From contig NZ_CP016778.1 of assembly GCF_002288265.1 (NCBI RefSeq), forward strand, positions 124,001 to 188,000: DNA of 64,000 nt, given 5' to 3'. Position 1 is the stretch's first letter. Each line of letters begins with the position of its first letter. Below are positions 44,697-55,841 of the stretch, in pieces. The position numbers were made by a program, and so were the translations under genes. The stretch is from Candidatus Planktophila versatilis. GTDB lineage: Bacteria; Actinomycetota; Actinomycetes; Nanopelagicales; Nanopelagicaceae. A model generated the notes under the pieces. It was not told where the DNA came from. It ran no database searches and worked only from the letters and a program-made list of their open reading frames with translations.

Positions 44697-45626
44697 GTGA
44701 GCGCGATAAACCAACACACCTCCCGCATTGATCGTGCAGGTGAACTTCGGGTGAACCAAGAAACCCTTGATCAATTGTGGCAACGCGCACAAATCTTGCA
44801 GATTGCAGAAGGTCGCATTGCAGCAGTTGATTCAAAATTGAGCCTCATCAACGCCGAACAAGTGGCGGCGCATATTTCCACACACACTTTTACTGAAGGA
44901 AGTCGCTACTTCTTAGGTTTAGATCTGCACACCAAGGCGCCTTTCTTTGCATGGGATACCGAGTGGGTCGGCACAATCGATGATGAAGTCAAAGAAGTCG
45001 GATTCTCCACTGTTCGTGAGATTGGCTCACTGCTGAGTGAGCAAGAGTTAGAAATTTCATTACATGCCATGGGGTTAAGTAATTGGCATCGTGCACATCC
45101 ACGTTGTCCGAGATGTGGTGGCGCAACTCGAGTGGATCTTGGTGGAGCAGCGCGCACGTGCGATGCAGATGGCAGCCAACATCACCCACGCACCGATTCT
45201 GCAGTGATTGTGCTTGTCAAAGATCGTGATGATCGCATTTTGCTTGGACATCAACCAATCTGGCCAGAAGGTCGATTCTCTACCTTTGCTGGTTTTCTTG
45301 AACCCGGAGAAACATTTGAACAGTGCGTTGCGCGCGAAGTTTTAGAAGAGTCAGCAGTTGTTGTAACAGAGTTGAACTACTTAGGATCACAACCGTGGCC
45401 ATTTCCGGCCAGCATCATGATTGCATTTGAAGCAGTGACAGATAATCCAGAGCGCGCACAAGGTGATGGGCAAGAAATCACAGAAGTGAAATGGTTTACC
45501 CGCGCGCAATTATTGGCTGCGGCTAAAGATGGTTCGCTCTTGCTCCCACCATCAATTTCAGTTGCCCGCAAGATGATTGAACGCTGGTTGGGTGAGAGCG
45601 CACCCGGCGGCCAGACATGGCGATAG
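44697..45626 (+). CDS. nudC: NAD+ diphosphatase / NudC-family Nudix hydrolase
   Basis: Hydrolyses NAD(H) to NMN(H) and AMP and, in known homologues, removes NAD caps from RNA. The 309-residue protein has an N-terminal NUDIX-like domain, a zinc-binding insert with CPRCGG and TCDADGSQHHPRTD (mycobacterial NudC proteins also have His in place of the fourth Cys), and the Nudix box GFLEPGETFEQCVAREVLEE. The NudC-specific SQPWPFPAS motif follows. GTG start. It overlaps uvrD2 by ten bases, the same order as in Mycobacterium. Confidence 0.94.
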   Translation: MSAINQHTSRIDRAGELRVNQETLDQLWQRAQILQIAEGRIAAVDSKLSLINAEQVAAHISTHTFTEGSRYFLGLDLHTKAPFFAWDTEWVGTIDDEVKEVGFSTVREIGSLLSEQELEISLHAMGLSNWHRAHPRCPRCGGATRVDLGGAARTCDADGSQHHPRTDSAVIVLVKDRDDRILLGHQPIWPEGRFSTFAGFLEPGETFEQCVAREVLEESAVVVTELNYLGSQPWPFPASIMIAFEAVTDNPERAQGDGQEITEVKWFTRAQLLAAAKDGSLLLPPSISVARKMIERWLGESAPGGQTWR

Positions 45627-47269
45627 AAGACTCAATACTTGCAGCCCTTGATCCTGATCAAAGGGCGGTAGCACTTGCTACACGTGGTCCCCTCTGCGTC
45701 ATTGCAGGTGCTGGCACCGGAAAAACTCGCGCAATCACACATCGCATTGCCTATGCAGCAGCGATTGGCACGATGGATCCGCAGAAAGTATTGGCGCTGA
45801 CATTTACGGCAAAAGCTGCTGGTGAAATGCGAGCCCGACTTCGCACACTTGGCGTGCCGGCCGTTGCCGCTCGCACGATTCACTCTGCTGCCCTTAAGCA
45901 GCTGCTCTACTTTTGGCCCTCAGTATTCGGTGGTCGCACACCAGATCTGATGACAACCAAGACTGGCTTTCTTACCGAAGCAATTAATCGCGCGGGGCTA
46001 AGTGGCTCGCTGCGTGCTACCAACCGCGAATTGATGCGAGATATTGCCGCTGAGATTGAATGGGCGAAGGTCTCTCAAGTCGGACCCACTGATTACATCA
46101 ATGAAGTAAGTAAGCGAATGCAGAAGCCTCGTGTTACGCCAGAGCAGATGGTTCAGGTCTATACCGCCTATGAATCAATTAAAAAGCAAGAGCTCGCCAT
46201 TGATTTCGAAGATGTACTTCTCTTATGTTCTGCGATGTTAGAAGAAGAGCGCGATGTGCGCGAGCGAGTGCAAGACCAATATCGGTATTTCACTATCGAT
46301 GAGTACCAAGATATTTCTCCCATTCAACAGCGACTGATTAATGCTTGGCTTGGAACGCGCACCGATATCTGTGTCGTTGGTGATCCCGCCCAAACTATTT
46401 ATTCATTTGCTGGTGCCACCCCGGTATTCCTTAATACATTTACCCAACGCTTTCCGGAAGCCGAAGTTATCCGTTTAACAACTGGATACCGCTCCACCCC
46501 GGAAATCACCTTTGCTGCCAATGCACTCTTGCGTCACGGAACTATGGGCCAGGAACTTGTTGCTGTTAATAGCCATGGCTCTAAACCAATTGTCACCGGC
46601 TATGGCGATGAACCGGCAGAGATTGGCGGAGTCATGGCTGAAATCAATGCTCTCTTGGTAAATGGCACTCAGCCACAAGAGGTTGCGATCTTGGCTAGAA
46701 CTAATGCACAACTTAAAGGTGCAGAGAAAGCAATGCTGGCGCAGAAGATTCCATATCAAGTGCGAAACACAGAAAGATTCTTTGAACGCCGCGAAGTGCG
46801 TGATTTTCTCAAGCAAGTGCGGCAAGCATCGGTTATTCCGGCTGAAGGCCAAGGATGGATTGATGAACTACGCTCCCTTGCCCAGCCTTATTTAACAGGG
46901 GAAGCAATTGATGGGATTGCAGCGCTGCTGCATTTAGCGCGTGAACTAGATGACGATGATAATTTCACTCCGAAAACTTTGCGCACATATCTGCGCGAAG
47001 TAGAAGACCGGGTGCAACAGAACAATCCACCGACCATGCCGGTTGTCACACTGGCAACGCTGCATGCAGCTAAAGGTCTGGAATGGGAGCGGGTATTTTT
47101 AATTGGCGCATCAGATGGCCAATTACCGCTGACTAATAGTTCAGGTGAGGCCGTTATCGAAGAGGAACGTAGGCTCTTTTATGTGGGAATCACCCGCGCC
47201 AAGGCAGATCTGCATATCTCCTATCGAGGCAATCCAAGCCAATTCCTGCGTGAATCAGGCCTTATTTAA
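45617..47269 (+). CDS. uvrD2: UvrD2-like SF1A DNA helicase, short form
   Basis: ATP-dependent 3'-5' DNA helicase of the UvrD/Rep family. The 550-residue protein carries all core motifs: Q motif LDPDQRAVA, Walker A IAGAGTGKTRAI (about residue 32), Ia LALTFTAKAAGEMRARL, II FTIDEYQDISPIQQ, III GDPAQTIYSFAGA, IV TTGYRSTPEI, V TLHAAKGLEWERVFL and VI RLFYVGITRAKADL. It ends about 20 residues after motif VI. Mycobacterial UvrD2 continues for roughly 150 residues with a tetracysteine and HRDC domain, absent here. Its ATG overlaps nudC by ten bases. Confidence 0.92.
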   Translation: MAIEDSILAALDPDQRAVALATRGPLCVIAGAGTGKTRAITHRIAYAAAIGTMDPQKVLALTFTAKAAGEMRARLRTLGVPAVAARTIHSAALKQLLYFWPSVFGGRTPDLMTTKTGFLTEAINRAGLSGSLRATNRELMRDIAAEIEWAKVSQVGPTDYINEVSKRMQKPRVTPEQMVQVYTAYESIKKQELAIDFEDVLLLCSAMLEEERDVRERVQDQYRYFTIDEYQDISPIQQRLINAWLGTRTDICVVGDPAQTIYSFAGATPVFLNTFTQRFPEAEVIRLTTGYRSTPEITFAANALLRHGTMGQELVAVNSHGSKPIVTGYGDEPAEIGGVMAEINALLVNGTQPQEVAILARTNAQLKGAEKAMLAQKIPYQVRNTERFFERREVRDFLKQVRQASVIPAEGQGWIDELRSLAQPYLTGEAIDGIAALLHLARELDDDDNFTPKTLRTYLREVEDRVQQNNPPTMPVVTLATLHAAKGLEWERVFLIGASDGQLPLTNSSGEAVIEEERRLFYVGITRAKADLHISYRGNPSQFLRESGLI

Positions 47270-47304
47270 TTGCCTTGCACGAATCAATGACCATCTTGTA
47301 CCCT

Positions 47305-47310
47305 TAGAGT
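47305..47310 (+). promoter_or_regulatory. -10 element TAGAGT of the whiB7 leader transcript
   Basis: TAGAGT lies 25 bases before the leader ORF ATG. Unlike the leaderless genes, a purine-rich ribosome site (GGAAGGGGA) is present between it and the ATG. Confidence 0.4.
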
Positions 47311-47335
47311 TCGAAAACAGGGAAGGGGATTGAAA

Positions 47336-47527
47336 ATGGCAAATGTCATGACTTCAATCATCACAGCAGGCGCATGCGCTGCTGCACCTTCTGCTGCCTT
47401 CACACATTCAACAGCTTCTGCAACCAAGCGTTCACATAAGCGAACAGTTTGGCCCACAGCTACAAAGTCAGCGTTTTACGCCAACTTTTATGCAGTGGAT
47501 GAGGCTACTGGAGTACTAATCGGATAA
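47336..47527 (+). CDS. Leader ORF upstream of whiB7 (63 aa)
   Basis: A 63-residue frame, Ala/Thr/Ser-rich in its first half (MTSIITAGACAAAPSAAF) with a basic stretch (KRSHKRTVWP) and an aromatic end (AFYANFYAVDEATG). No signal peptide or known domain. GGAAGGGGA gives a good ribosome site. Its stop is 16 bases before a strong terminator, which in turn precedes whiB7. In Mycobacterium and Streptomyces whiB7/wblC is controlled by an upstream ORF and terminator; this frame sits in the equivalent place. It could also be an independent small gene. Confidence 0.6.
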   Translation: MANVMTSIITAGACAAAPSAAFTHSTASATKRSHKRTVWPTATKSAFYANFYAVDEATGVLIG

Positions 47528-47543
47528 AACCGAACAGTCCCAC

Positions 47544-47588
47544 AAGGGCCTCAAATCCACTCGATGGATTTGGAGGTCCTTTTTTATT
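47544..47588 (+). terminator. Strong intrinsic terminator between leader ORF and whiB7
   Basis: 15-bp stem with one G-T wobble and one bulged G (47544-47558 with 47566-47581), 7-base loop, followed by TTTTTATT. It lies about 80 bases before the whiB7 start and may act as a conditional attenuator. Confidence 0.85.
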
Positions 47589-47665
47589 ACCCAAATCAAA
47601 GAAGAAATCAAAAAGAGATAACAAGAGCAAGACTAACTAGAGAGAGATAACAGGGGGTGAGGACG

Positions 47666-48037
47666 ATGAGCGTTCTCTTCAGCGAACTACAGGTACCAGG
47701 CTGGGCAGAGACCGGCGAAAAGATTGGCCTTAACGATGTGACATTCACATACGACAACGCCAAGGCTTTCACCCTGCCATGCCATCAAGCTGACCCTGAA
47801 CTCTTCTACTCAGAGACAGATCAGGGAATTGCAGAGGCGAAGGCGCTCTGTGGCACATGTCCAGTGCGTAACAAGTGTCTCGATGGTGCGCTCTCACGCC
47901 AAGAACCATGTGGAGTGTGGGGCGGACAGCTCATCGAAGATGGCGTGATCATTGAACGTAAGCGTCGTGCCGGTAGACCGCCACGTCAGGTGATTGCAGC
48001 TGCTCGCATTGTTCAGAACGAGCAAGCGCTAGCGTAA
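47666..48037 (+). CDS. whiB7: WhiB7-type Fe-S transcriptional regulator
   Basis: Binds SigA and DNA to activate antibiotic and redox stress genes. The 123-residue protein has four cluster Cys, C39, C62, C65 and C71 (LPCH; LCGTCPVRNKC), then GVWGG (83-87) and a Lys/Arg C-terminus with AGRPPR, resembling the AT-hook RGRP specific to WhiB7. The fifth Cys (C82, EPCGVWGG) replaces the Trp of M. tuberculosis WhiB7. I chose the ATG (MSVLFSEL), which matches the WhiB7 N-terminus; a GTG nine bases upstream is possible. Position after uvrD2 is as in Mycobacterium. Confidence 0.9.
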   Translation: MSVLFSELQVPGWAETGEKIGLNDVTFTYDNAKAFTLPCHQADPELFYSETDQGIAEAKALCGTCPVRNKCLDGALSRQEPCGVWGGQLIEDGVIIERKRRAGRPPRQVIAAARIVQNEQALA

Positions 48038-48056
48038 GTCGGGTAATTGGCTTAAC

Positions 48057-49196
48057 TTAAAAGGCACACCCACAGAGTGGGTGGCGAGGGATCGCCACCA
48101 CCTGTGGGTAGGCAAGTAATTGATAGTCAATTGAAATAGCTATTCCGAGCAGCGCTGAGAAGTCTGCCGCCGTATCTCTCTGATTAGCAACAGTGATGGC
48201 ATCACAAAATTGCACAATCAATGAAGCCGCCATCGCCGCAATAAAGTGAGCAGCAATTTGTGGGTATTCCTTTGCAACATTTGGTGTGAAATCAAGGAGA
48301 TCTATCACACCACGTTGTTCCCTGGATGAAAGCTCATAGCAACGCAGGCAGGGACTCACACCCGGAATTACCAAGGGACCAATCAGCGCACTGTCTGCGC
48401 GTGGAGAAGGAATGATGAGAAATTTTTCGCCAGAGCTCATCCAGAGTGAAAGAGTTTCGGGGTTGATATCACCGCAATGAATACGTAAATCAGGAGTTGA
48501 TACCTCATCTAGATAATTCTCATGGCGATCAAGGGGAAATAGTGCAAGTTCTCTTCTCATCATCTCGCAATGGCTCTTAAAGGCCGTTCCAGTATCTGAT
48601 TGCCGGAACGTTGAAAGTGCCATATCGATATCACTGATGAGTGGATATGCCCCACGCGATGCTGGTGTGAAGCGCACTTGCGAAAGTCCGCTTGCAAGTA
48701 GAAGCGAGTAGAGAAGTGTGGCAACTCGATTGTTTCCCGAAATTTCGCAGAGATAATTTTGCCGGGAACTTAACATTTCAACGCCACCATCGATGACACC
48801 GGTAATCCAATTTGTTTGGTTTAACTCAGGTGCGCACCTGCGTTGTAGTTGTTGGACTCCAGCATCAAATGCGGGTCTACTATTTTTCTTCACTCGGTTA
48901 TCTAATTTGGAGACAAAACGTTGGGAAACTCTGAGCACACCTTGCTCGTGGTTGATTAATTCTTCTTCTTCGAGTTGAGCTAAGAGCGTGCTCACCGTTG
49001 CATCTAGTACGTTAGGTGTTTGTAGGATTTCTTTCTCAGACTTTCCGAGTGCCAGCGCGAGGGCAATCACTTTCTCTTCCGGGGTGGAGATCCGAATGAC
49101 TCGTTTAAGCGTTCCTAGGAAGTATTGGCCGGGTGTAGTGCTCTGACTTAGCGCAACTCCGCGTTTGAGTTCTCTCATGTGGCAAAGGATGCGCAC
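48057..49196 (-). CDS. ThiF-like protein (cyclodehydratase / TOMM leader-binding-like)
   Basis: A 379-residue cytoplasmic protein. The N-terminal half is divergent, with a region that may be a winged helix (PNVLDATVSTLLAQLEEEELI). The second half resembles the ThiF/E1-like domain of RiPP cyclodehydratases: GPLVIPGVSPCLRCYELSSREQ carries one CxxC and the C-terminus HPLCGC the second Cys pair, suggesting structural zinc. Mycobacterium has a similar gene near whiB7. No precursor peptide, YcaO or other RiPP genes are close, so the role is unknown. The GTG start has AAGG upstream; an ATG at 49178 is the alternative. Confidence 0.65.
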   Translation of the reverse strand: MRILCHMRELKRGVALSQSTTPGQYFLGTLKRVIRISTPEEKVIALALALGKSEKEILQTPNVLDATVSTLLAQLEEEELINHEQGVLRVSQRFVSKLDNRVKKNSRPAFDAGVQQLQRRCAPELNQTNWITGVIDGGVEMLSSRQNYLCEISGNNRVATLLYSLLLASGLSQVRFTPASRGAYPLISDIDMALSTFRQSDTGTAFKSHCEMMRRELALFPLDRHENYLDEVSTPDLRIHCGDINPETLSLWMSSGEKFLIIPSPRADSALIGPLVIPGVSPCLRCYELSSREQRGVIDLLDFTPNVAKEYPQIAAHFIAAMAASLIVQFCDAITVANQRDTAADFSALLGIAISIDYQLLAYPQVVAIPRHPLCGCAF

Positions 49197-49285
49197 TTAC
49201 CTTGGACTGAACTTGCCAGCGCCAGCGCCGCTGTGTGCAAGGCGAGTGTTTTCTCACCCTATGAGTGCAGGGGAGTACTGCGCGT

Positions 49286-49322
49286 AAAAAAATAACCCCC
49301 GCTCAGTGAGCGAGGGTTATTT
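49286..49322 (-). terminator. Intrinsic terminator of the DUF5679 gene
   Basis: Stem of up to 16 bp with one C-A mismatch (AAATAACCCC... pairing with ...AGGGTTATTT), followed on the minus strand by seven T. The gene's stop is 19 bases upstream on the minus strand. Confidence 0.85.
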
Positions 49323-49340
49323 CTACGAATATGTGGTGAC

Positions 49341-49511
49341 TTATTCTGGCTTCTTGCCGAGAATGCGATTTACCTTGGTGCCACACACAGGGCAAATACC
49401 CTGTGCCATGCGACGACCAGACTCGGAGATCTTTACTGTTCCTTCGAAATCACGCTTTGCTTTGCACTTAACGCAGTAAGCGTCACCCTTGTATGTCTCT
49501 ACCTCTGCCAT
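49341..49511 (-). CDS. DUF5679 zinc-ribbon miniprotein
   Basis: A 56-residue protein with two Cys pairs (YCVKCKAKRDFEG and GICPVCGTKVNRI) separated by a beta stretch, the usual pattern of actinobacterial DUF5679. Function unknown; nucleic acid or ribosome contact is plausible for such a ribbon. ATG (MAEVETYKG) follows GGAGG by six bases, which decides it over an in-frame codon seven codons upstream. It has its own terminator and appears monocistronic. Confidence 0.85.
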   Translation of the reverse strand: MAEVETYKGDAYCVKCKAKRDFEGTVKISESGRRMAQGICPVCGTKVNRILGKKPE

Positions 49512-49642
49512 TTTTGCCTCCGTTCGACCCATGAGCTAGGCGCCATGCGTACTGGTCAAAACAGTACTCTGCGCCACGCTCAAAATCGGGGAAATCACGC
49601 GTAGATTCCCTTACATCTTTATTTCCAGGATTATCAAAGGAA

Positions 49643-50227
49643 TTAGGTCAGTTTCGAGAGTTCTGCCGGGGCCAGCAGGGCGCGTTCGGCCGCCTCATAG
49701 CCATCTAGATAGGCAGTTGCCAGCTCAGAGTCCTCAAAACGGGATAAAACCTCGGTAAATCCTTCGCCGTGGTCGAAGAATTGAAGGTGGATGGCTTCAT
49801 GGAAGAGCACATAATCCCGGGCGTATTCTGGAGCGAGCTTCAAACGGTCTGAGATTCTGATGGTGCGATCAACGCTGGTGCATGAGCCCCAACGCTCGCG
49901 CATCGGCCTCCATGTAACGCAAATGGGGCGGATAGTAATTTCTGGAGCCAACTCGGTCAGTAATTCATCGATACGCCGAGCCAGATCTGCCTCACCAGGG
50001 GTCTGGGACTGCTCTTGGCTGCGAATCTTGGCAATCATCTCCGGCACGATCACTCGTTCGTCAGCTTTGCTTAGACGCGCTGGAATAGAGATGACAATTC
50101 TCCCACCCTGTCGATAGGCAGAGATACTTTTCTTCCGCCGAGCAGAGCGAATGACGATGATTTCGCCTTCGCCGAGCCCCGGCAGAGTCTCTTCTTCAAA
50201 TTCACCCGGAAAGCCTGAAGTTGTCAT
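49643..50227 (-). CDS. YgjP/DUF45-type metallopeptidase-like protein
   Basis: A 194-residue putative zinc metallopeptidase. The YgjP core shows VTWRPMRERWGSCTS, IRISDRLKLAPEYARDYVLFHEAIHL (HEAIH zinc motif) and a third His in DHGEGFTEVLSRFED. An N-terminal acidic tail precedes a basic strand region (VIRSARRKKSISAYRQGG). YgjP proteins are often associated with SprT-like repair metalloproteases or restriction systems, but here it lies in the conserved actinobacterial stretch near whiB7. The ATG (MTTSGFPG) was chosen as the first after the AT-rich upstream region; an alternative start 11 codons upstream exists. Confidence 0.82.
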   Translation of the reverse strand: MTTSGFPGEFEEETLPGLGEGEIIVIRSARRKKSISAYRQGGRIVISIPARLSKADERVIVPEMIAKIRSQEQSQTPGEADLARRIDELLTELAPEITIRPICVTWRPMRERWGSCTSVDRTIRISDRLKLAPEYARDYVLFHEAIHLQFFDHGEGFTEVLSRFEDSELATAYLDGYEAAERALLAPAELSKLT

Positions 50228-50314
50228 TGAGGAAATGTAATAGAAAAAGATTTCAATCAAGAGGAATTCAGAATATTTGACAAGAAATTTTTCTTGTGTC
50301 TTCGCGATTTACAT

Positions 50315-50343
50315 TTGATTCCAGCAAAAAACTCTCGTACTTT
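50315..50343 (+). promoter_or_regulatory. Promoter of the candidate sRNA
   Basis: TTGATT at 50315-50320 and TACTTT at 50338-50343 are 17 bases apart, close to the sigma-70 pattern. The predicted start near 50350 coincides with the first base of the basal RNA stem. Confidence 0.5.
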
Positions 50344-50349
50344 GCGCAT

Positions 50350-50432
50350 ACGAAGTCCTCGGATAACCGTTTGATATCTGCAAGGGGAAGGCAGATATTA
50401 AAATGTGCGCCCGGGGACTTCGCTTTTCTTTT
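50350..50432 (+). ncRNA. Candidate structured sRNA
   Basis: An approximately 83-base element with two nested stems. Basal stem: 50351-50362 with 50411-50422, 12 bp with one T-G wobble. Apical stem: 50370-50381 with 50391-50402, 12 bp with one G-T wobble, closing a 9-base loop AAGGGGAAG. It ends in TTTTCTTTT, so the basal stem doubles as a terminator. It lies on the strand opposite to both neighbouring genes and has its own promoter. I could not match it to SRP, 6S, tmRNA or known riboswitch motifs. Confidence 0.5.
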
Positions 50433-50440
50433 AGGGCTAT

Positions 50441-51754
50441 TTAGAGCAGGCCGCTGAGGTCATCTGGAATCTGGGCAGATTTCATGAATTTTTCAGGATC
50501 AAGTAACTCCTGGGCACTTGGCAAAATGCCACTCCAGATCTGATCGCGAGCTGCAATATCTTTGACTTCGCGAATCTTCTGCCAGAAGGCGCTCGCTTCC
50601 CGTGCAAGTCGAGGAGTTACCTGCAATCCAAGAAGTGACGAGAAGAGTTGTTGTGATGGTGCACTCGTTGCACGTTGGCGCCGATAGATTTCGCGAAGTT
50701 GGGCAAGTGCTGGCAAACGATCACCGGCTGCTTGTGTGGTGACTTCATCTGCCCAACCATCGACAAGTGCAAGTACTGTTTCTAGTTTAGAAAGAGCGGC
50801 ACGTTGTGCTGGTGTTTCCTCCGGTGTAAAGATCCCTTTATTGAGCGCAATCGAGAATGAATTCTCGCCAGATTCCGGATTCATCTGGGAAGGATCAAAG
50901 TTCTGCATTGCATCTTCGGCTTGACGTTGAATTGCATCCATATCGATATGAATTCCGCGACCATAATCAACAATGGCGCTGCGAATGTAGGAAACGATCC
51001 AAGGATTATGTTCAAATAATCTTGCTACCGAAGCTTCCCGAAGTGCGTGAAAGATATAGACCTCACTCTTTGGGATCTCAAGATCGGTGCTCCACTTTTC
51101 AATATTTTCTGGGATTAGTACTGGGTGCGCCGGGGTAAGTAAGGGCAGCCCCACATCGTGCACACCTGTGGCCGATGCCGAGATTGAGCCAATGGCTTGG
51201 CCCAACTGGGTGGCGATCATGGAACCAATAAATGTGCGCAAGAGACCAGTGATGGCGCCCATGGAGTTGGCCATCTCCTCTGAACTTCCCGATGCATCAT
51301 CTAGTAGCCCTGAGATTGCAGTGGAGAGTCCAGTAGCAAGTGGCTCCATTGTCTGGTGCCAGCCATCGAGTGTGAGATCCACCCAATCGAGTCGGCTCAC
51401 GGCGCGTGGGGAAGAAGAGGATTGGGTAGCTGGAAAATGCGTTGCTTCATTAAGCCAGAGATCAGAAATTTCAAAGGCGCTAGCAACCACACTGACATCT
51501 TTAGTGCCGATTGGTTCTGACCCTTGCACTTGCACAAATTTCTTTGCCGTATCTCGCACGACGTTCTTGGGAAGTGCATCTGTGCTACCACCAGCAAAGG
51601 CGGCAAAAGGATTGATAAAACCTGCTGGATTTATTCCCATCTGTTCAAATTGTTTCTGAATTTGTTCCTGCATTTGGCGCATCATCGCGGAAAAATCTTC
51701 CGGCTTCTTACCTTCTTCATCTCCATCATCTGGAGTAAATCCAAAAGGTGACAT
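50441..51754 (-). CDS. DUF2342 / zincin-like family protein (Rv3195-type)
   Basis: A 437-residue protein annotated in relatives as a zinc-dependent metalloprotease or putative hydrolase. The N-terminus is acidic (FGFTPDDGDEEGKKPEDF) followed by an amphipathic Gln-rich helix. The middle has GLLRTFIGSMIATQLGQAIG and LLTPAHPVLIPENI; then HALREASVARLFEHNPWI, where relatives as I recall them have REAAHARLF, and LVDGWADEV. The loss of the His at EASV suggests the metal site is degenerate here. It shares its position beside the S16 protease and UPF0182 with Mycobacterium. ATG (MSPFGF) follows GAGGG. Confidence 0.75.
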   Translation of the reverse strand: MSPFGFTPDDGDEEGKKPEDFSAMMRQMQEQIQKQFEQMGINPAGFINPFAAFAGGSTDALPKNVVRDTAKKFVQVQGSEPIGTKDVSVVASAFEISDLWLNEATHFPATQSSSSPRAVSRLDWVDLTLDGWHQTMEPLATGLSTAISGLLDDASGSSEEMANSMGAITGLLRTFIGSMIATQLGQAIGSISASATGVHDVGLPLLTPAHPVLIPENIEKWSTDLEIPKSEVYIFHALREASVARLFEHNPWIVSYIRSAIVDYGRGIHIDMDAIQRQAEDAMQNFDPSQMNPESGENSFSIALNKGIFTPEETPAQRAALSKLETVLALVDGWADEVTTQAAGDRLPALAQLREIYRRQRATSAPSQQLFSSLLGLQVTPRLAREASAFWQKIREVKDIAARDQIWSGILPSAQELLDPEKFMKSAQIPDDLSGLL

Positions 51755-51877
51755 GTGTAACCCTCTTTTCTCTTTCCGCGCCGCGCTGTCTTCTGGTTCG
51801 AGTCTATTCAGATGCATCGGTTTGAGCAGTATGAAAATCTAATACATCTACATCTGCTGCAACCATGAGGGTCAGCA

Positions 51878-51901
51878 CTTTCTTCCCAGAAAGGGTAGGC
51901 T
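51878..51901 (+). promoter_or_regulatory. Palindrome and TAGGCT -10 before the 92-aa membrane protein gene
   Basis: CTTTCT-TCCC-AGAAAG is a perfect 6-bp inverted repeat (51878-51893) immediately before TAGGCT (51896-51901). TAGGCT ends seven bases before the ATG, giving a leaderless start. The palindrome covers the spacer and -35 position and could be an operator. Confidence 0.4.
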
Positions 51902-51908
51902 CTTTTCT

Positions 51909-52187
51909 ATGGATCTCTTCGGCAATAGCTCTGCAATAGTCGCGGGCAGTAGCACTTTTGCCGCCTTGATTTGGTGGGTAGTACCGATAAGCGCTCTCAT
52001 CGGCGGAATTGGCTACGTCCTGTGGATCTCAAAATTTAAAGGAAAATTCGAATCCGAAACAACGCGATCAGTAGGAAACTTCCAGCGTTTTCAAGACTCT
52101 TTTCGCACCGAAACTCAGGCACCGGTAACCCAGGTGCCTCAAGTCCAGGTGCCAGAGGAACAAGTCCCAGAACATCGAGATAACTAG
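51909..52187 (+). CDS. Small single-pass membrane protein (92 aa)
   Basis: A 92-residue protein with one membrane segment (about residues 17-43, LIWWVVPISALIGGIGYVLWI), a basic juxtamembrane patch (SKFKGKFESE) and a cytoplasmic Gln/Pro/Val-rich tail with short VPQVQVPEEQVPE repeats. No named family recognised. The leaderless promoter and close spacing (ten bases) to the S16 protease gene suggest that it heads the S16-UPF0182 operon. Function unknown. Confidence 0.7.
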   Translation: MDLFGNSSAIVAGSSTFAALIWWVVPISALIGGIGYVLWISKFKGKFESETTRSVGNFQRFQDSFRTETQAPVTQVPQVQVPEEQVPEHRDN

Positions 52188-52197
52188 CACGTAATTT

Positions 52198-53040
52198 ATG
52201 CACATTCCTCGAATTCCACTTCTTCGAGTGCCGCGTGCGCTTGCTAGAACAGGTTATAGGCGAACTTCTAGGATCACCAGAATCTTAATCTCGCTATTTC
52301 TTATCGCCCCCCTCGTTCTCCCGGTAAATTTTGTTTTGATTAATCCTGGCGAAGGAAATCCACTCTTTCCAAAGATGCTCAAAGTTAATTCAGTAAAAAC
52401 TTATCCCGTCGATGGTCAGATGTTTCTTCTATCTATCTGGGTCACTAACCCCCAAACGCTGGTGCTGGGATTTCAAGTTCTTCTCTGTTGGATTAAGCCG
52501 ACATGTGTTGTCACCCCGCGTTCGGTTATCTATCCCAAAGCAACTGATGACAAGGCTGAATTAGCCGAAGGTGCGAAAGAGATGAAGCAATCGCAAAATT
52601 CGGCCATAGTGGCAACGAAGAAACTCTTTGCAAAAAAGTATCCAGAGCTCAACCTTGCCGGGCTTACCGATGCATCCCTGAAAGTTTCCTTGAAAAATAC
52701 TGGTGGGCCAAGTGGAGGACTGATTTTTTCACTTGGTCTAGTAGAACTACTAGCACCTGAGAATCTTTTGCAAGGAAGAAAGATTGCAGCCACCGGAACA
52801 ATCTCAAAGTCAGGTGCGGTGGGGGCAATTGGTGGCGTTCAAGAGAAGATTGTGGCGGCCCGCGCAGCTGGCGTAGAGCTACTTTTCATCTCCCGGGATA
52901 ACTGCGATGAGATCTCGGGTGAGGTAGATGGATTGAAAGTGATTGCCGTCTCAACGCTAGAAGAGGCCTATCTGGCGCTTAAAGGTGGGGGAAATTCCGA
53001 TTTTCGAGGGGTCCAGGGGTGCACTAATCTATCGGCATGA
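52198..53040 (+). CDS. Lon-like S16-family membrane-anchored protease without a recognisable PDZ domain
   Basis: A 280-residue protein with an N-terminal membrane segment (about residues 29-48, ILISLFLIAPLVLPVNFVLI) and a C-terminal S16 domain. The Ser-Lys dyad is readable: S172 in NTGGPSGGLIFSLGLVE and K217 in AIGGVQEKIVAARAAG. Relatives of the YlbL type have a PDZ domain between these, but here only about 110 residues separate the membrane segment and the S16 core, with no PDZ signature. It ends in a short Cys-containing tail. The UPF0182 start overlaps the stop by four bases. Confidence 0.82.
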   Translation: MHIPRIPLLRVPRALARTGYRRTSRITRILISLFLIAPLVLPVNFVLINPGEGNPLFPKMLKVNSVKTYPVDGQMFLLSIWVTNPQTLVLGFQVLLCWIKPTCVVTPRSVIYPKATDDKAELAEGAKEMKQSQNSAIVATKKLFAKKYPELNLAGLTDASLKVSLKNTGGPSGGLIFSLGLVELLAPENLLQGRKIAATGTISKSGAVGAIGGVQEKIVAARAAGVELLFISRDNCDEISGEVDGLKVIAVSTLEEAYLALKGGGNSDFRGVQGCTNLSA

Positions 53041-55841
53041 ATAGAAATCGTAGCCCGCTCGTCATTACTGCTGGAATATTGGTTGCACTAGCAGCTGCGA
53101 CTCTTTACTTCAGCAGCTTCTATATCGACTGGCTCTGGTTTAAATCTGTAGATTTCACATCCGTATGGACAACAGTTCTTGTCACAAAGATTCAGCTCTT
53201 TTTTCTGATCGGGTTAATTACCTCCTTCGTAATCTCACTCAATATCTTTATTGCATATAGAACTCGTCCGCTCTATGTCCCAGCAAGTATTGAAGTCAAC
53301 GGCCTCGAGCGTTTACGCGCACAGATTGAACCGATTCGGCTCTTAGTCTTTGCCGGAATCTGTCTGGTCCTTATTTATTTTGCCGGATCTTCCGGAATGG
53401 CGTTCTGGCGCCAGTGGTTACTCTTTAGAAACTCAACTGAATTTGGCGTTAAGGATCCTCAGTTCAATCTTGATATCTCCTTCTTTGCTTTTAAACTCCC
53501 AATTTTCCAGGCCTTGATTGGTTGGGGAATTTCAACCCTTATCTTGGCAGCACTTGCGAGTGCATTCGTTCATTACATGTATGGCGGAATTCGCACCGCT
53601 GTGCAAACTGATCGAACAACTGTTGCAGCTAGAGTTCAGATTTCTATCCTGCTCGGACTCATTGTTCTACTCAAAGCTGTTGCTTACTGGTTTGATCGCT
53701 TTGCCCTCGCACTTAAAGAGAGCACCCTCATCACCGGACTTAAGTTCGCAGATGTAAATGCTTTGCTACCCGCGAAAGCAATCCTGTCCGCTATCGCTGT
53801 GGTCTGCTCACTCCTCTTCTTTGCAAATATCGTTCGTCGCTCATGGCTATTGCCAGCAGCAGGTACGGCGCTGCTTGTTATCTCTTCAGTTCTCATCGCT
53901 GGTCTGTATCCAGCGGCGATTCAGCAATTTCAAGTAAAGCCATCTGAATCATCTAAGGAAGCTCCCTTTATTGAGCGCAATATTGAAGCTACCCGCGCAG
54001 CTTATGATCTCGACGGAGTTGAGATTCAAGATTACAACGCAACGCTTTCTACCAGCGCCGGGCAACTTGCCAAGGATGCGGCGACAATTGCCAACATCCG
54101 ATTGATGGATCCCAATGTAATTTCTGCAACCTTCCGCCAGCTTCAGCAGATTAAGCCTTATTACACATTCCCACAGTCACTAGATATTGATCGATACACA
54201 ATCGATGGAGTTTCTCGTGATGCTGTTGTAGCTGTTCGCGAACTTAATATCGAAGGTAACCCAAGTCGAAATTGGATTAATGATCACTTGGTCTACACAC
54301 ACGGCTTCGGTTATGTCGCAGCCTATGCAAATACCGTGGATGCAGATGGAAAGCCAAGTTTTGCAGTCGGCGATCTGCCTCCAACTAAAGGCTTAGGCGA
54401 GTTCCAGCCCCGTATCTACTTTGGTGAGAATGTTCCTGACTACTCAATTATTGGTGGAAAGAAGACTGAATCTCCAGTTGAATTCGACTATCCAGATGAT
54501 AGTTCTGCAAATGGTCAGAAGAATTACACATACACAGGAACCGGTGGTGTTGCCGTTGGTAGCACCATTAATAAGTTGCTCTTTGCAATCAAGTATCAAG
54601 AGCAACGCATCTTGCTTTCTAACCTCATTAATGCTGATTCCAAGATTCTCTACAACCGTTCACCTCGTGAGCGCGTAGCGAAGGTTGCTCCATGGCTTAC
54701 TCTCGACGGAGATCCATATCCATCCATTGTCGATGGCAAAGTTATGTGGATTATCGATGGTTACACAACAAGTGCTGGCTATCCATATGCTCAAACCACA
54801 TCACTTTCCACAGCAACTGCTGATGCGCTGACAGCAAATTCAACTTCAATTACTGCTCAGACAAATACGAAGGTGAACTACATTCGAAACTCTGTCAAAG
54901 CAACTGTCGATGCCTACAACGGAAGCGTCACGCTCTATGAGTGGGATGAGAAAGACCCTGTCCTTAAGACCTGGATGAAGGCATTTCCAAATACAGTAAA
55001 GGCAAAGAGCACCATGTCTAAGGGGCTACTGGAGCATGTTCGCTACCCAGAAGATATGTTCCGTGTTCAACGCGACATCCTAAGTTCGTATCATGTGAAT
55101 AACGCAGCTGCCTTCTACGGTGGACAAGATTTCTGGCGTGTGCCGCGCGATCCCTCTACTTTTGGAGCAAATGCTGGTGCGCAGCCGCCGTACTACATGA
55201 CTGTGCAGATGCCAGGTTCAAAGACACCGGCATACTCGCTAACAACTCCATTTGTGCCACGAGGTGGACGTGAAAACCTTTCTGCATTTGCTGCCGTGAA
55301 TTCAACAGCGGGTCCGGATTATGGAAAAATTACTGTCCTGCAATTACCGCGCAGTACAGCGATCGCAGGACCATCTCAAGTTGCATCGAACTTCGAAGCC
55401 AAGCCAGAAGTTGCAAATGCACTCTCACTTCTGCGACAAGGTGGATCTGATGTTGTGCTTGGTAATTTGCTCACACTTCCAGTTGGAAATGGCCTGCTCT
55501 ACGTGCAACCGGTCTATGTGTTAGCGACTGCTAACTCGGCTGCATACCCACTACTTCAGAAAGTGTTGGTCTCATTTGGAGATGTGATTGGTTTTGATAG
55601 TTCGCTCAAGGGTGCACTGGATCAAGTATTCGGTGGAAACTCTGGAACTTCTTCATCAACAGCAAATCCAACAACGAGCAACAGTTCTGCTGATCTTGCA
55701 AGTGCGCTACAAAGTGCTAAGCAAGCAATTGCAGATGGACAAGCCGCACTTGCGAAGGGCGACTTCTCGGCTTATGGTCGCGCACAAGATCGACTTAAAT
55801 CAGCTATCGCTGCTGCTCTCGCTGCACAATCGCGCAAGTAG
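53037..55841 (+). CDS. UPF0182 family large membrane protein
   Basis: A 934-residue protein typical of Actinobacteria and cyanobacteria. The first 290 residues contain about seven membrane segments (for example LVITAGILVALAAATLYFS, LFFLIGLITSFVISLNIFIAY, LLPAAGTALLVISSVLIAGLY); the remainder is a large external domain with signatures IERNIEATRAAYDLD, IRLMDPNVISATFRQLQQIK and PWLTLDGDPYPSIVDGK. A Ser/Thr/Ala-rich linker and helical QSAKQAIADGQAALAKGDFS end the protein. Function unknown. It is always adjacent to the S16 protease gene in mycobacteria, so a shared envelope role is plausible. Confidence 0.92.
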   Translation: MNRNRSPLVITAGILVALAAATLYFSSFYIDWLWFKSVDFTSVWTTVLVTKIQLFFLIGLITSFVISLNIFIAYRTRPLYVPASIEVNGLERLRAQIEPIRLLVFAGICLVLIYFAGSSGMAFWRQWLLFRNSTEFGVKDPQFNLDISFFAFKLPIFQALIGWGISTLILAALASAFVHYMYGGIRTAVQTDRTTVAARVQISILLGLIVLLKAVAYWFDRFALALKESTLITGLKFADVNALLPAKAILSAIAVVCSLLFFANIVRRSWLLPAAGTALLVISSVLIAGLYPAAIQQFQVKPSESSKEAPFIERNIEATRAAYDLDGVEIQDYNATLSTSAGQLAKDAATIANIRLMDPNVISATFRQLQQIKPYYTFPQSLDIDRYTIDGVSRDAVVAVRELNIEGNPSRNWINDHLVYTHGFGYVAAYANTVDADGKPSFAVGDLPPTKGLGEFQPRIYFGENVPDYSIIGGKKTESPVEFDYPDDSSANGQKNYTYTGTGGVAVGSTINKLLFAIKYQEQRILLSNLINADSKILYNRSPRERVAKVAPWLTLDGDPYPSIVDGKVMWIIDGYTTSAGYPYAQTTSLSTATADALTANSTSITAQTNTKVNYIRNSVKATVDAYNGSVTLYEWDEKDPVLKTWMKAFPNTVKAKSTMSKGLLEHVRYPEDMFRVQRDILSSYHVNNAAAFYGGQDFWRVPRDPSTFGANAGAQPPYYMTVQMPGSKTPAYSLTTPFVPRGGRENLSAFAAVNSTAGPDYGKITVLQLPRSTAIAGPSQVASNFEAKPEVANALSLLRQGGSDVVLGNLLTLPVGNGLLYVQPVYVLATANSAAYPLLQKVLVSFGDVIGFDSSLKGALDQVFGGNSGTSSSTANPTTSNSSADLASALQSAKQAIADGQAALAKGDFSAYGRAQDRLKSAIAAALAAQSRK

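Follow-up and report, generated by a model that had tools for sequence, protein, structure and literature searches.

What is encoded in the gap between two minus-strand metallopeptidase genes of Candidatus Planktophila versatilis, and is the long hairpin that lies there peculiar to one genome or part of something wider? The host is an acI freshwater actinobacterium of the family Nanopelagicaceae, and the window, by which we mean the whole 64-kb stretch of DNA that was analyzed, comprises bases 124001-188000 of its 1,325,420-base closed genome. The gap is bounded by the end of the Zincin_2 gene at 50441 and the start of the ygjP-like gene at ~50227-50260. A first-pass annotation had described the hairpin as an orphan structured small RNA (sRNA), and direct reading and folding recover the promoter, both stems, the loop and the T-rich tail where that annotation had placed them (table 1). 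Judged from sequence comparison, the locus is a genuine and previously undescribed small RNA gene, which the first of two covariance models described below (R1) matches in its own genome with E = 9.5e-26.

Table 1. Features of the sRNA gene and its flanking genes, in window coordinates.
Feature	Position	Strand	Basis or remark
sRNA gene	50350..50427	+	~78 nt; matched by covariance models R1 and R2, with class-wide matches
-35 element TTGATT	50315..50320	+	Direct reading of the sequence
-10 element TACTTT	50338..50343	+	Direct reading; 17-base spacer after the -35 element
Basal stem, 5' arm CGAAGTCCTCGG	50351..50362	+	Partner is 50411-50422
Apical stem, 5' arm TTTGATATCTGC	50370..50381	+	Folding; family and class alignments
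Apical loop AAGGGGAAG	50382..50390	+	Core GGGGAAG at 50384-50390, the proposed seed
Apical stem, 3' arm GCAGATATTAAA	50391..50402	+	Folding; class alignment
Basal stem, 3' arm CCGGGGACTTCG	50411..50422	+	Folding; class alignment
T-rich tail TTTTCTTTT	50424..50432	+	Presumed intrinsic terminator together with the basal stem
YgjP-like metallopeptidase gene (PF01863)	49643..50260	-	Divergent neighbor, kept across the class and beyond
Zincin_2 metallopeptidase gene (PF10103)	50441..51817	-	Conserved neighbor

Promoter, fold and strand

Six bases separate the end of the TACTTT element from position 50350, near which transcription would begin. A generic promoter scan of the locus did not list TTGATT-17-TACTTT because the -10 element is weak relative to the E. 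coli consensus, and the reality of this promoter rests on its conservation rather than on the scan. When a promoter is scored as a -35 element with at least four of six matches to TTGACA and a TANNNT -10 element at a spacing of 16-19, a properly spaced sigma-70-type promoter is found at 70 of 81 homologues and in 1 of 403 control windows. Of the 79 homologues that have a -10 element, 71 have it 6-9 nt ahead of the RNA start. At the opposite end of the gene, each of the 34 distinct family sequences continues after the stem with CTTTT or CTCTT, and the tail is poorer in T among high-GC lineages. The description of a stand-alone structured RNA with its own promoter and terminator is upheld by these counts, with a T tail that is kept in the family and weaker in the high-GC lineages.

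The two stems, basal and apical, are of 12 bp each, the former enclosing the latter. The basal stem contains a single U-G and the apical stem a single G-U, and, as had been observed before, the wobbles leave both stems intact. The plus-strand RNA of 50315-50432 has a minimum free energy of -40.5 kcal/mol (z = -3.75; 1 of 200 shuffled sequences is equally stable). The minus strand of the same stretch also folds (z = -4.09), and the strand is therefore not decidable from a single sequence and requires comparison. In the family alignment, standard pairs occupy 99.2% of the paired cells, and at 5 of the 22 pairs both partners have changed without loss of pairing; the replacements include C-G for G-C and A-U for U-A. 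Across the class, in an alignment of 63 sequences, 95.9% of cells pair and double changes occur at 20 of the 22 pairs; the double-change cells number 262 (85 in shuffles), and the covariation score is 0.58, compared with 0.25 when shuffled and at most 0.13 when the partners are slid. The basal stem alone is paired in 99.3% of cells in these 63 sequences, with double changes at 11 of its 12 pairs. Because this alignment had been fitted to the model, an additional, loop-centered count was made without it, in which the first seven apical positions were each paired in 58 to 63 of the 63 sequences. Conserved structure with compensatory changes, as expected of a structured bacterial sRNA, is thus present here, and the selection on structure that the first-pass annotation had suspected is evident both within the family and class-wide. 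The paired columns further contain 111 G-U cells and only 17 A-C cells; this excess, the conserved plus-strand promoter and the plus-strand T tail in the family together favor the plus strand, to which the RNA had originally been assigned.

The sequence GATAAC of the internal loop is retained in many lineages and missing from others and is hence not the essential part of the RNA. A short open reading frame after the loop (AAAATG...) was dropped as a candidate, the alignment not retaining it. Two loci of family f26, genus g26 (L466 and L467) carry a shortened form of ~56 nt that retains the promoter and in which a short apical hairpin, bearing GCAGGGGAAGGC or GCAAGGGGAAGGC, follows the basal stem almost without a break; this is a minimal form of the sRNA family.

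Distribution and gene neighborhood

The hairpin is not an orphan, as had first been supposed, but a member of a class-wide, syntenic family. A DNA search of the Nanopelagicaceae recovers it in 259 of 296 genomes, almost always as a single match, and in 106 of the 108 near-complete genomes; 16 of 17 genera are represented. The R1 model, built from the 34 distinct family sequences, likewise finds it in 106 of these 108 genomes (16/16 genera) and extends it to 52 of 137 genera of the class Actinomycetes; the second model (R2), built from 63 class-wide sequences, extends it to 68 of the 137 genera (161 of 395 genomes, ~26 families). Outside the class, three genomes carry the sRNA (G675, G688 and G738), each with a ygjP-like gene within ~0.5 kb. 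The covariance search over related genomes that had been proposed at the outset therefore returns homologues in the family, in the class and in three genomes beyond it. Several large families (e.g., f3, f4, f13 and f19) have no match under strict filters, which does not imply loss.

Some matches were set aside. A second covariance match within one genome is in most cases the original hairpin on its opposite strand, and two loci (L354 and L468) are chance hairpins that have neither the loop core nor the usual neighbors. Carriage by phages was also rejected: the 15-mer CGCAAGGGGAAGGCG occurs in 85 viral contigs, about the number expected by chance, and the covariance-model E values there are at least 0.02. 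One bin with 5% contamination (G282, contigs C41 and C13) contains two full-scoring copies, probably because it is a mixed bin and otherwise through a rare duplication.

At nearly all outer loci, the sRNA lies within a few kilobases of homologues of its neighbors in the window, namely genes for YgjP-like (PF01863), Zincin_2 (PF10103), DUF5679 (PF18930), Lon_C-type and UPF0182 proteins. This proximity could be taken to mean that the hairpin is a terminator, attenuator, leader or antisense element of a neighbor such as Zincin_2, ygjP or DUF5679, a reading also favored by several high-GC genomes in which DUF5679 is encoded on the strand of the RNA and begins 68-340 nt downstream of it, and by the ability of the minus strand to fold. 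We consider it quite improbable: the orientation, order and distance of the neighbors differ between lineages while the sRNA stays constant, the RNA has a promoter of its own, an invariant loop is not expected of a terminator, and the G-U bias speaks against the minus strand. Because orientation and order change, the sRNA is an orthologous gene rather than a fixed cis element of one neighbor, and in the Actinomycetota it is a vertically inherited, stand-alone gene. In the window, positions 45617-55841 hold a cluster of genes for a UvrD-type helicase, WhiB, DUF5679, YgjP-like, Zincin_2, Lon_C-type and UPF0182 proteins, which is partly retained across the class; the ygjP-like gene is also found outside it.

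The loop core and its candidate targets

The core of the apical loop, GGGGAAG, is identical in all 81 homologues from the class and phylum. Covariation marks the pairs that flank it, among them the closing pair, in which C-G has become G-C, and the contexts seen are GC-AAGGGGAAG-GC, GG-AAGGGGAAG-CC and GCAC-GGGGAAG-GTGC; the bases 5' of GGGG and the closing pair vary, and the 3' GAAG does not.

We favor the reading, with a probability of about 0.6, that the stand-alone sRNA pairs in trans through GGGGAAG with CUUCCCC in mRNA leaders, those of topA and atpB being the first predicted targets. Control of mRNAs by base pairing is probable because the invariant loop matches CUUCCCC ahead of topA and ATP-synthase genes. 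The complement of the core, CTTCCCC, was searched over the whole host genome; eight genes carry it within -80 to +30 (~4.7 expected at the rate of the whole genome), which is not above chance, and in all leaders of one genome it occurs only 4 times against ~1 per isomer, a difference that is not decisive alone. As targets were thus chosen from eight chance-compatible matches in one genome, only recurrence in other genomes counts, and four genes with CTTCCCC in the host (topA, atpB, rpoB and phoH) were followed into other genomes, which are related to each other and in which gene starts are approximate, having been extrapolated from tblastn.

Of the 38 family genomes whose topA leaders were compared, 12 have CTTCCCC there; the 20 isomeric 7-mers have a mean of 0.30 and reach 3 at most, and CTTCCCC is the commonest 7-mer outside the start-codon region. 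These sites, usually 5-15 bases before the start, come from four genus codes (g1, g37, g44 and g46) and have unrelated or diverging flanks. Four further topA leaders carry TTTCCCC, which pairs with the loop through a G-U, and the exact CTTCCCC is missing in more than half of the 38. For atpB, 5 of 26 leaders have CTTCCCC (isomers: mean 0.40, maximum 1), where it closely follows a recurrent ATAGGGT-type -10 element. The other two genes were rejected: CTTCCCC occurs in none of 14 rpoB leaders (window -70 to +3), so that the site in the host upstream region, CTTCCCCTT, is not conserved in other genomes, and in only 1 of 15 leaders of the phoH-like gene. Leaders around the sRNA locus on 120 other contigs have no clear excess of CTTCCCC. 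The prediction of targets with the loop as seed hence yields topA and atpB as candidates, and not rpoB or phoH, and the suggestion that the G-rich loop is a seed for C-rich targets gains candidate CUUCCCC sites in two sets of leaders.

Two observations accompany these leaders. In atpB leaders L487-L495 and L546-L560, a recurrent promoter element (ATAGGGT/ATAAGGT) has CTTCCC shortly downstream, and the stretch from this motif to the start often lacks a clear Shine-Dalgarno (SD) sequence. In one genome bin (G001), topA 5' ends that differ from each other stand on two contigs (L502 and L529); both have CTTCCCC, and the bin is probably mixed.

The predicted core duplex of the loop with CUUCCCC has an energy of -11.2 kcal/mol, with a near-zero opening cost for both the loop and the topA site. 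Energies also bear on the earlier remark that the loop resembles an SD sequence; as an SD mimic, the RNA would modulate ribosomes through binding of its loop to the 16S rRNA 3' end. A short duplex between loop and anti-SD is possible, and AAGGGG is ~3-fold enriched in the translation initiation regions of the host, as is AGGAGG; the anti-SD duplex is, however, weak at -6.9 kcal/mol, where a perfect SD reaches -16.1 and the topA site -14.3, and the positions 5' of GGGG vary whereas the invariant 3' GAAG does not fit the anti-SD. The SD resemblance thus becomes a weaker alternative, and we regard mimicry of this kind as very improbable.

The main rival to pairing is that AAGGGGAAG is the site of a conserved RNA-binding protein, which the RNA would sequester or guide, as a CsrB-like decoy for another protein. 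Invariance of the loop core across the class and beyond exceeds what is usual for base-pairing seeds, the internal loop and the stem sequences vary freely, and the predicted mRNA sites were not found outside the family (topA in four outer-class genomes has no CTTCCCC site). A pure decoy model, on the other hand, does not predict that the exact complement CUUCCCC recurs in topA and atpB leaders, and the neighborhood suggests no partner, YgjP-like and Zincin_2 being metallopeptidases. We think protein binding unlikely, if deserving of serious consideration.

Under the preferred reading of pairing in trans, a housekeeping-type promoter would start a transcript of ~78 nt that folds into one long hairpin, in which the GC-rich basal stem would hide the 5' end and double as the terminator. 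The variable internal loop would separate this stem from the apical stem, which would display AAGGGGAAG; the core GGGGAAG could then act in trans as a seed for CUUCCCC, or for UUUCCCC via G-U, near the start codon. With topA and atpB in the Nanopelagicaceae as first predicted targets, the most likely effect would be a block of translation initiation, and the same seed may act on different mRNAs in other lineages.

Relation to known RNAs and meaning

A scan with cmscan against all of Rfam 15 gave no family at threshold at the host locus or at the outer loci scanned, and at the host locus E values up to 10 yielded chance matches only, in agreement with the initial impression that the RNA resembles no known family. 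In the literature searched, the loop sequence was not found, nor was any sRNA with Planktophila or any small RNA with Nanopelagicales.

The known RNA that comes closest in manner is 6C/B11 (RF01066), likewise a stable, stand-alone actinobacterial sRNA whose homopolymer-rich loops are the proposed seed. 6C RNA is widespread in Actinobacteria (PMC9569102), and B11 (the 6C RNA of mycobacteria) represses eccB4 mRNA, its loop pairing with a G tract in the leader (PMC10470900). The present RNA is not a member, because the RF01066 model has no match at gathering score at the host locus or the outer loci scanned and the loop is opposite: 6C has two C-rich loops for G-rich targets, whereas here a single G-rich loop, invariant in core (81/81), would serve C-rich targets.

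The C-rich-loop sRNAs of Firmicutes, such as those of the RsaE type, also use a short homopolymer-rich loop as a seed near start codons; the comparison is one of working only, since the seed chemistry is opposite and the present loop would address C-rich sites, not the SD. Ms1 and 6S RNA are similarly stable, hairpin-like RNAs of Actinobacteria, yet are much longer and act on RNA polymerase, and their Rfam models have no match at gathering score at the host locus or the outer loci scanned. The small signal recognition particle (SRP) RNA (RF00169) is a single ~100-nt hairpin that is ubiquitous and present in one copy, and the ubiquity in the family, single copy and long hairpin with internal loop of our RNA could suggest a diverged housekeeping RNA of the SRP or 6S-like kind. 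This is hardly credible, given that no Rfam family reaches threshold at the locus or the outer loci scanned and that the host genome has a separate, standard small SRP RNA; identity with the latter was rejected outright, with no RF00169 match at the locus and the genuine gene at G000:C1:1218039-1218135.

On the comparative sequence evidence, this RNA constitutes a new family, conserved to unusual depth, within a general kind that is already known. To our knowledge, few trans-acting RNAs are known in Actinomycetota and very few are conserved class-wide. It is possible, though we hold it to be doubtful, that the sRNA is a core regulatory RNA of Actinomycetota that is older than the class, has kept its loop unchanged since and links supercoiling (topA) with energy supply (atpB) via the shared CUUCCCC, as a G-rich counterpart of 6C. 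The family comes with a covariance model that is ready for use, with a phylogenetic span and with a seed that has testable targets. The acI freshwater actinobacteria have very small genomes, and as far as the literature searched shows, this would be the first sRNA reported for them, one that points to control of topoisomerase I and ATP synthase at the post-transcriptional level.
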